From Zanthoxylum bungeanum (lineage: Eukaryota; Streptophyta; Magnoliopsida; Sapindales; Rutaceae), in NCBI GenBank assembly GCA_019454045.1, contig SKCR01015057.1, positions 62,001 to 126,000 on the forward strand: DNA of 64,000 bases. The letters are read 5' to 3'. Both the position numbers and the translations under genes were made by a program. Under the pieces are notes generated by a model. It worked only from the letters and a program-made list of their open reading frames with translations. It ran no database searches and was not told where the DNA came from. Every line of letters begins with the position of its first letter. Position 1 is the first letter of the stretch. Below, piece after piece: positions 46,803 through 48,246 of the stretch.

Positions 46803-47315
46803 ATGGAAGAAGTTCTCACAAATCTTCGCAAGCAATTTCCTTCTCTCCCTCAAAACACTCTGATGAAAGTCTACAAAGCTCGCTTAGAACGGATGAGATT
46901 ACTAACGATCCATGGTGTTCCTAAAGATATTCATTGGGTAATTGAAGCACGGGTCCGATTGGCAGGTGAGTCTTCTGAATCTTTTATTTCACATCTGCCT
47001 GGTTTTGGAAGAAGCACCTATATAAAGAAACGTAGAGCTAAGCAAATGGGTGTTTGTTACAAATGTGCACGATGTAATTGCAATACTCGTTGTCGTTCTT
47101 TAGGAATGATGTCTGATAATAGTGAAGATAAAATTAAATTCATTAGGGATGGCTTGAGTAAGGAGTCTGTAGATAATATATCTTCGACTCTTGAGACGCA
47201 TCCCAGTGGATATGTTCATATAGCCATTCGCAAATTACATACACAATTTCAAAAAGAAAGACAACAATTAAGTCTAGGGAATCTGACTCAAAAAGACCAT
47301 GTTTGCCAATTATAA
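46803..47315 (+). CDS. Cysteine-rich, basic, virus NABP-like protein (cargo gene 1)
   Basis: A 170-aa intact ORF (MEEVLTNLRK start; an upstream in-frame Met at 46770 would add 11 residues but overlaps the splice-site-like signals). The centre reads GFGRSTYIKKRRAKQ (68-81), then C85-x2-C88-x4-C93-x3-C97, an arginine/lysine patch followed by a compact zinc-binding motif. That combination recalls the small nucleic-acid-binding proteins of carla- and allexi-like plant viruses (Viral_NABP family), some of which suppress RNA silencing; this likeness is recognised by eye and not searched. The C-terminal half (IKFIRDGLSKESVDNI and onward) is unfamiliar. The sister copy keeps the same zinc ligands. 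It is not a known Athila env: no signal peptide or membrane segment. Confidence 0.62.
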   Translation: MEEVLTNLRKQFPSLPQNTLMKVYKARLERMRLLTIHGVPKDIHWVIEARVRLAGESSESFISHLPGFGRSTYIKKRRAKQMGVCYKCARCNCNTRCRSLGMMSDNSEDKIKFIRDGLSKESVDNISSTLETHPSGYVHIAIRKLHTQFQKERQQLSLGNLTQKDHVCQL

Positions 47316-47592
47316 GAAAATTGGATGGGAAGCTTGTCCTTGACGCATAGACTTCAATCAAGCCGCTAATTTTCTTCTACATATTATATCTCTTTGTCTT
47401 TTCCTAATAATTGTGATTTGTTTTCTTCTATTTTCTCCGACAGGATCCAGGCCTTTTTGACTATCACGATTTATTTTACTGTTAACTAATAATTATCATT
47501 TGGCAGGTACTAGTGCTATTATTTTACTCACCATTTTCAGGTGTTATAAATTCAACTCATCATTGCACTTTTGAAGACATCCAGAGTAAAAC
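47316..47592 (+). promoter_or_regulatory. LOG leader with several acceptor-like sites
   Basis: Between the two cargo genes are three pyrimidine-rich stretches ending in AG: TTTTCTCCGACAG (47444), ATCATTTGGCAG (47506) and CACCATTTTCAG (47541). ATG of LOG is at 47593. This layout could allow LOG to be translated from its own spliced RNA. The sister element has equivalent text (53100-53240, minus), partly mutated. Confidence 0.4.
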
Positions 47593-48246
47593 ATGGAAGC
47601 CACTTCAAGAATACGAGTTGAAAACATCTGTGTGTTTTGTGGTACTAGTGTTGGTGTTAAGCCACAATACGTAGAAGCAGCACAGGAATTGGGTCGAGTC
47701 TTAGCTGCAAAGAATATGCACTTAGTATATGGCGGAGGCAATCTTGGACTTATGGGGATCGTTTCAAAAGCTGTACAGGAAGGAGGCAGTCACGTTTTGG
47801 GAATCATCCAAAAACCATTGGCAGAACCAAATCTTATTGGACCATCAAACGGAGAGGAACTGATCGTGCCAGGTATGTCTGAACGATTGGTAGAAATGAT
47901 TAACTGTGCTGATGCTTTTATTGCTTTGCCAGGTGGCTTGGGTACATTGGAGGAAATTTTTATAGTGTTATCTTGGGCGAACCTGAACATACACCAGAAA
48001 CCGCTTGGACTGTACAACGTTGAAGGATTTTATGATTTTCTTTATCTGTTTCTTGATGATGCTCGGAGAAATGGGTTCGTGTCAAAACCTATGAAAGAAC
48101 TCCTCTTTACTGCCAGAACTGCTCCGGATCTAATAGACCAACTCTTAGCCTATGAACCACAAGTTGACCCTATCCTTTCAAAGATAAATTGGTCCGAGGA
48201 CGATCGTGGTAAGAGGCATCAGATTAATCTGGATCTTAACCTTTAA
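47593..48246 (+). CDS. LOG: LOG-type cytokinin phosphoribohydrolase carried by a retrotransposon (cargo gene 2)
   Basis: A 217-aa intact, intronless ORF. LOG enzymes hydrolyse cytokinin riboside 5'-monophosphates to free active cytokinin bases. Seen here: a Rossmann start ICVFCGTSVG (12-21), nucleotide loop YGGGNLGLMG (46-55), the conserved Arg in MSERLVEM (R98), and the signature PGGLGTLEE (113-121) with its catalytic Glu, followed by WANLNIHQKPLGLYNV (128-143). The signature has Leu where plant LOGs usually have Tyr (PGGYGT). The protein is about the usual length. The C-terminus ends LDLNL, an EAR-like pattern unusual for LOG. Plant LOG genes normally have several introns, so this copy likely came through an RNA intermediate. 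It lies inside Athila-B between integrase and PPT, and a second copy is in the sister element, so it is cargo and not a resident gene. Activity is unproven. Confidence 0.9.
   Translation: MEATSRIRVENICVFCGTSVGVKPQYVEAAQELGRVLAAKNMHLVYGGGNLGLMGIVSKAVQEGGSHVLGIIQKPLAEPNLIGPSNGEELIVPGMSERLVEMINCADAFIALPGGLGTLEEIFIVLSWANLNIHQKPLGLYNVEGFYDFLYLFLDDARRNGFVSKPMKELLFTARTAPDLIDQLLAYEPQVDPILSKINWSEDDRGKRHQINLDLNL

Follow-up and report, generated by a model that had tools for sequence, protein, structure and literature searches.

Gypsy-type long terminal repeat (LTR) retrotransposons of two Citrus species and Populus trichocarpa carry a LOG-family (YgdH) domain, and those of Phalaenopsis an AlkB-type m6A demethylase domain, according to the available part of an account that cites Steinbauerova 2011 for the former (PMC9289625). 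Here, we analyze a 64,000-nucleotide stretch of Zanthoxylum bungeanum DNA (contig SKCR01015057.1, positions 62,001 to 126,000; hereafter the window) in which two Athila-like LTR elements, A (41737-50192, plus strand) and B (50193-61481, minus strand), lie head-on, and in which both elements hold two extra genes between the remnants of pol and the polypurine tract (PPT). Gene 1 encodes a small cysteine-rich protein and gene 2, in the slot usually used for env, as the sequence-only reading of this DNA had placed it, a protein of the LONELY GUY (LOG) family. Steinbauerova is said to have described in 2011 a LOGL4-like open reading frame (ORF) in Athila-like elements. The suggestion of the sequence-only reading that LOG is a new kind of retroelement cargo is thus superseded, the LOG (YgdH) domain of gypsy-type elements being already in print (PMC9289625).

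We consider it an even bet that both ORFs form an accessory module, maintained through selection on the element, of an old Athila-like Ty3/gypsy lineage of eudicots. What carries this proposal is the anatomy of the two elements, membership of both proteins in profile families, a single LOG clade among the sampled sequences, a C-terminal tail that is absent from controls, and constraint on gene 1 between two elements. Mechanistically, gene 1 would encode a basic, zinc-finger-like member of the viral nucleic acid binding protein (NABP) or cysteine-rich protein (CRP) family, which would most likely blunt RNA silencing of the element, act on host transcription, or both, as viral CRPs do; by this analogy, it is probably a silencing suppressor. 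Gene 2 would descend from one old capture, after which the LOG fold was kept, together with the catalytic motif in most matches, and a basic tail ending in an ethylene-responsive element binding factor-associated amphiphilic repression (EAR) motif was gained. The LOG protein may act in two ways: it would raise active cytokinin in expressing cells, and its tail would also dock nuclear TOPLESS-type corepressors, with the result that cells shift to a state conducive to expression and inheritance of the element. A bolder version, which we advance tentatively and well short of an even chance, is that the lineage made an enzyme of hormone metabolism into a nuclear effector that docks TOPLESS and paired it with an RNA-virus-type silencing suppressor, that retrotransposition spread this pair through eudicots as a host-manipulation module, and that the suppressor gene was exchanged between plant RNA viruses and retroelements, in a direction left open.

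The LOG gene and its C-terminal tail

The LOG ORF of element A (217 amino acids) runs from ATG to stop with no intron and contains YGGGNLGLMG, PGGLGTLEE, and Arg98, in agreement with the sequence-only reading. Pfam (Lysine_decarbox, 5.1e-34), a PDB sequence search (nearest solved structure: Arabidopsis At2g37210, 2a33), and a predicted fold that agrees with plant and bacterial LOG structures (pLDDT 86; Foldseek E 3.9e-21; TMt 0.95 for 2a33) all concur on its identity. This ORF and gene 1 of element A each form one uninterrupted frame, alignable with its relatives throughout its length. A protein search with the LOG ORF returned 7889 matches at E <= 0.001 among 8000 candidates scored; the best 120, whose named hosts include Xanthoceras, Populus, Reevesia, Paulownia, and Diplodiscus, are referred to below as element-type matches. 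Six motif residues are all retained in 97 of these 120 and in the window copy. We take Arg98 and the glutamates to be catalytic, as in LOG structures. Position 98 is R in 109 matches, Q in 10, and C in 1, and the matches with another residue are long open frames; some LOG lineages may have lost activity yet kept the ORF and a tail. A single-sequence search of viral_contigs with LOG gave no match, and the 25 LOG relatives in that collection are 28-45% identical.

For comparison, the 120 cellular LOGs listed by a search with LOG3, which represent many angiosperms and a single conifer, served as controls. A tree was built from the window LOG, 32 of the 120 element-type matches, 18 of the 120 controls, LOG8, and two bacterial LOGs on which it was rooted, the last 14 residues of element-type rows having been cut beforehand. 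The 33 element-type LOGs group in one clade (support 100/96) with named members from several plant families; a separate clade (support 96/94) unites the 19 plant LOGs. This is most simply explained by a single old capture. The sequence-only reading had envisaged capture of a processed LOG copy, which would suggest a recent host source. The tree rejects recent capture of a LOG1/LOG3-type host gene, other plant LOG types being hardly sampled in it. Median identity of element-type LOGs is 49% to LOG3, 45% to LOG8, and 47% to a Pseudomonas LOG, and in each of the 94 rows of 205-225 amino acids (the window copy and 93 matches), LOG3 outscores both LOG8 and the Pseudomonas protein. Identities to the three references are close, however, and the tree, having its root set on the bacterial rows, does not discriminate between a plant and a bacterial donor.

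Most element-type LOGs end in a basic stretch followed by a terminal LxLxL, a tail that escaped the sequence-only reading and is not seen in the 120 cellular LOGs. LxLxL lies within the last 14 residues of 89/120 element-type matches, as opposed to 0/120 controls, and K[KR]x[KR] within the last 24 residues of 91/120, as opposed to 1/120; these controls are LOG1/LOG3-type only. Among the 105 element-type matches with a complete-length C-terminal part, 81 have LxLxL. In an alignment of all 120 matches, with rows unselected, the three tail columns hold L in 94/105, 98/102, and 94/102 filled cells, and residues vary in the two intervening spacer columns (S, T, D, N; S, R, N, H). Of 24 representatives below 75% identity, drawn from 103 rows of at least 200 amino acids, 17 carry LxLxL and one (P0061) carries DLNxxP. 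In the predicted LOG model, confidence is low over the tail, as expected of a disordered end. Both LxLxL and DLNxxP are EAR motif forms that bind TOPLESS and are used by pathogen effectors, and we read the tail as EAR-type because it matches the motif definitions given in that source (PMC8126959); docking to TOPLESS is a prediction from this match.

The sequence-only reading saw in LOG a cytokinin-activating enzyme and nothing else, which would leave the tail without a separate role. The kept fold, with its close agreement with 2a33, and the six residues shared by 97 matches are what such an enzyme would display. Set against this are the LxLxL ends found in element-type matches and in none of the controls, the constancy of the three leucine columns while their spacers vary, and the 11 matches that have replaced Arg98 and are still long open frames; we find an enzyme-only role unlikely. 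The opposite view, that LOG is now a TOPLESS-docking nuclear protein whose enzyme fold serves only as a scaffold, draws on the same tail conservation and on matches such as P0010, P0022, and P0112, in which Arg98 is replaced and the basic-plus-amphipathic tail is kept. It is improbable in our estimation, given the full set of motif residues in most matches and the weakened basic stretch of the window copy.

Gene 1 and the cysteine-rich proteins of plant viruses

The CRPs of plant viruses combine a nuclear localization signal (NLS) with a zinc finger and act as silencing suppressors; that of Chrysanthemum virus B acts as a transcription factor and induces hyperplasia (available parts of PMC12172455 and PMC8742542). 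The protein of gene 1 in element A matches Viral_NABP (8.1e-6; residues 38-124) and Carla_C4 (1.5e-5; residues 58-97, mainly basic stretch and finger), both above the curated cut-offs (PF05515, PF01623). The sequence-only reading had rightly noted a second small gene beside LOG and had missed its membership in viral protein families. A protein search with gene 1 gave 201 matches at E <= 0.1 among 231 candidates, and the 120 listed include Xanthoceras, Acer, Populus, Rhamnella, and Orobanche as named hosts. A basic, NLS-like stretch adjoins a four-Cys finger in this protein; the basic-stretch pattern and the pattern C-x2-C-x4-C-x3-C each occur in 106 of the 120 listed matches. In an alignment of 54 members (the window protein and 53 of those 120), 49 match Viral_NABP and 45 Carla_C4 at E <= 0.001, and the best E for a viral Pfam match within the family is 1.1e-8. 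The copy in element A is 12 amino acids short of the length common among relatives, 182 amino acids. Gene 1 relatives P0121-P0240 are plant gene models called hypothetical proteins, with viral Pfam domains, and the size of some match clusters runs from dozens into the hundreds (P0145: 566), fitting multi-copy element genes.

Kinship of gene 1 to viral CRPs rests on these profiles because its structure is poorly predicted and yielded no viral structural match that could be used; against PDB, there is a weak zinc-finger match only (E 0.032). Gene 1 might accordingly be unrelated to viral CRPs, its resemblance being convergence on a basic stretch and a zinc finger. The weak model, the lack of a viral structure match, and the narrow reach of the Carla_C4 match would suit this explanation, as would the finger spacing of carlavirus CRPs, which differs from that of gene 1. 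It has to contend, however, with window-protein scores that exceed the curated cut-offs of two Pfam families, with matches in most of the aligned members, and with a Viral_NABP match spanning residues 38-124, and we regard convergence as quite unlikely.

Two further sequences bear on the association of gene 1 with LOG. In a gene model of Orobanche gracilis (P0237), the domains of gene 1 are accompanied by part of the LOG domain, suggesting that an asterid has the pair too. The 3330-nucleotide contig L002 has an open integrase frame of 444 amino acids (58% identical to that of B), then an open gene 1 (64% identical), and then the motif ACATTGAGGACAATG, which, with one change, comes after LOG in the window. 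A tblastn search of this contig, in which about 980 nucleotides lie 3' of gene 1, found no LOG; gene 1 can thus stand alone there, and LOG was either added later or lost. L002 is filed under a metagenome-assembled genome of Candidatus Nomurabacteria, yet it carries a plant-type integrase and a CRP-like gene and is probably plant contamination. Between element A and L002, dN/dS of gene 1 is 0.24 (95% interval of pN/pS 0.28-0.47), and integrase gives a pN/pS interval of 0.28-0.42, with dS saturated. Gene 1 evolves under constraint like that on integrase, which is the best functional evidence here, though one element pair is a small sample.

This constraint also bears on whether both ORFs are mere passengers, that is, transduced or recombined sequence decaying without benefit to the element. 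Decay is visible in the window, where the LOG copy of B is broken, both copies of gene 1 have altered ends, and the comparison of gene 1 between A and B lacks significant constraint. The passenger explanation is nonetheless very improbable in view of the dN/dS of gene 1 against L002 and of the single LOG clade with named members from several plant families.

Two elements rather than one duplication

The feature coordinates of both elements are collected in Table 1. Gene order in B is that of A, with both extra genes included, as the sequence-only reading had proposed; LOG is intact in A only. The elements have LTRs, gag, reverse transcriptase (RT) before integrase, the primer binding site (PBS) TGGCGCCGTTGCCGGGGA, and extra ORFs between pol and PPT, all of them Athila features, and the class is given as Athila-like from layout and PBS. 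We take this PBS, of the tRNA-Asp type, to be usual for Athila. The Athila ORF-1 domain PF03078 is not among the Pfam matches of the 8 window proteins scanned; it is an optional feature, present in 16% of Athila elements (available part of PMC6317226). Element A lacks ~2.7 kb of pol, the part in which RT and the integrase core lie in B, and its long open frame (423 amino acids) is a mosaic form without RT.

Table 1. Features of elements A and B (window coordinates).
Feature	Position	Strand	Remarks
A, 5' LTR	41737..43903	+	starts TGATGAGC; inner edge approximate, just before PBS
A, PBS TGGCGCCGTTGCCGGGGA	43910..43927	+	
A, gag fragment	44300..44764	+	Retrotrans_gag PF03732, 1.1e-21
A, open frame, protease-like region fused to integrase end	45353..46624	+	Asp_protease_2 match weak, below cut-off
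A, gene 1, CRP/NABP-like ORF, 170 amino acids	46803..47315	+	basic motif and C-x2-C-x4-C-x3-C
A, gene 2, LOG-family ORF, 217 amino acids, intact	47593..48246	+	C-terminus KRHQINLDLNL (EAR-type LxLxL)
A, PPT	49554..49568	+	
A, 3' LTR, partial	49569..50192	+	deletion near start; end cut at junction with B
B, 3' LTR, partial	50193..51656	-	end cut at junction with A
B, PPT	51657..51671	-	
B, LOG copy, broken	52426..53054	-	in-frame stop and frame-changing deletion; same LxLxL end
B, gene 1, CRP/NABP-like ORF, 155 amino acids	53385..53852	-	frame changes near end
B, integrase fragment	54508..55296	-	rve, Integrase_H2C2
B, RT fragment	55745..56449	-	RVT_1
B, PBS	59350..59367	-	
B, 5' LTR	59374..61481	-	inner edge approximate; outer edge 61481

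One local duplication of a single locus is rejected, and the view of the sequence-only reading that LOG was carried through transposition is supported: A and B are two elements because their homology stops at the outer LTR edges (41737 and 61481), each has its own LTR pair, and the protease region is far more diverged than gag and the cargo. Over the LTR part before 43300, Kimura two-parameter distances of aligned parts are 0.053 for the LTR pair of A, 0.036 for that of B, and 0.046 between both 5' LTRs. At the junction (50192/50193), two cut 3' LTRs meet, and there is no target duplication. In 300-nucleotide steps, with gaps counted as differences, A and B are 74-86% identical over 45037-46536 and 85-97% in the other steps. 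The protease region has a dS of 0.47 (dN 0.086), though the LTRs differ by about 5%, and dS is only 0.04 in gag, 0.07 in gene 1, and 0.12 in LOG. From this disparity, we infer that the cargo and the remnants of pol followed separate histories in the two elements, for which recombination between elements is the simplest account. For LOG, the A versus B comparison, the only one in which its constraint was measured, gives a dN/dS of 0.38 (Fisher p 0.005).

Several observations weigh against a module kept by selection. That LOG count includes the broken copy of B; gene 1 lacks significant constraint between A and B (dN/dS 0.62, Fisher p 0.30), with a protein-guided recount of 1.26 that we think is inflated by the frame change in B, and gag has a dN/dS of 1.17. 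In the LOG family, Arg98 is replaced by Gln or Cys in 11/120 matches, and the window copy has Gln at position 73, where at least 90% of 37 aligned rows have Pro. Its basic stretch is weaker than usual (KRHQ where most have K-K-[RL]-[RK]), 31/120 element-type matches, some of them fragments, have no LxLxL, and three rows at the base of the clade (P0083 and P0114 of Xanthoceras; P0032) have the basic stretch without LxLxL. Some of the 120 LOG matches may lie outside elements, and L002 shows that gene 1 and LOG are not always together. The gene 1 model has a pLDDT of 56, the best E of Foldseek against viral models (BFVD) is 6.2, with nothing usable, and two scans of viral_contigs with gene 1 gave no viral relative, the match L001 being short, 35% identical, and apparently due to chance. 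Finally, silencing suppression, enzyme activity, nuclear location, TOPLESS binding, and benefit to the element are what we infer from the proteins and their relatives.

No further copy of gene 1 or LOG was found by tblastn in the 64-kb window, and the region on the PPT side is present a third time, in degraded form, at 61835-62101 (74-76% identity to A and B). Elsewhere, a Copia-type element occupies 2940-11947, with direct repeats at 2940-4820 and 10066-11947 (99-100% identical in the families listed) and, between them, gag-like and RT-like ORFs on the minus strand, the types being judged by eye; it is probably a young insertion. A tandem array at 29958-35136 has a 95-nucleotide register and higher-order spacings of ~190, 290, and 385 nucleotides.

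Comparison with known systems

The role of the additional ORFs that plant Ty3/gypsy elements have between pol and the 3' LTR is a standing question, and both genes described here suggest activities that can be tested, namely, silencing suppression for the CRP-like protein, and cytokinin activation together with TOPLESS docking for LOG. If these hold, retroelements of plants employ tools of the effector kind familiar from pathogens, and many relatives of a plant RNA virus gene family reside in retroelements. For annotation, some plant gene models named "LOGL" or "viral nucleic acid binding" are probably element genes.

Among plant LONELY GUY proteins, Arabidopsis LOG3 and LOG8 share fold and motifs with the element LOG, at 49% and 42% identity, respectively, in structural alignments. 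Plant LOG genes have introns; the element LOG differs in having none, in its separate clade, and in its basic-plus-LxLxL tail. Gene 1 resembles the CRP (NABP) of carlaviruses, allexiviruses, and mandariviruses in its Pfam families and in the basic NLS-like stretch beside a four-Cys motif, as far as the available sources on these proteins go. Unlike them, it resides in a retroelement, is commonly 182 amino acids long among its relatives, and has the C-x2-C-x4-C-x3-C spacing in most listed matches.

The nearest elements remain the gypsy-type YgdH elements of Citrus and Populus, likewise LTR retrotransposons with a LOG-family domain; the available part of that account describes neither a viral CRP-like partner nor an EAR tail, and its main text contains neither the term "carlavirus" nor "nucleic acid binding" (PMC9289625). 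The AlkB gypsy elements of Phalaenopsis have also added an enzyme domain, a different one, and no partner gene is described for them in the same part of that source. The effectors Jsi1, XopD, and PopP2 resemble the element LOG in having LxLxL or DLNxxP in a parasite's protein (available part of PMC8126959); here, in contrast, the motif is encoded by a retroelement and sits on a metabolic enzyme, with TOPLESS binding only predicted. A viral partner, an EAR tail, a single clade, or a LOG-free state in such a retroelement did not turn up in searches of open-licence literature, which is weak evidence of absence, the pairing of EAR with retrotransposons not having been searched. Thus, LOG as cargo was already known, and the virus-like partner and the tail seem new.
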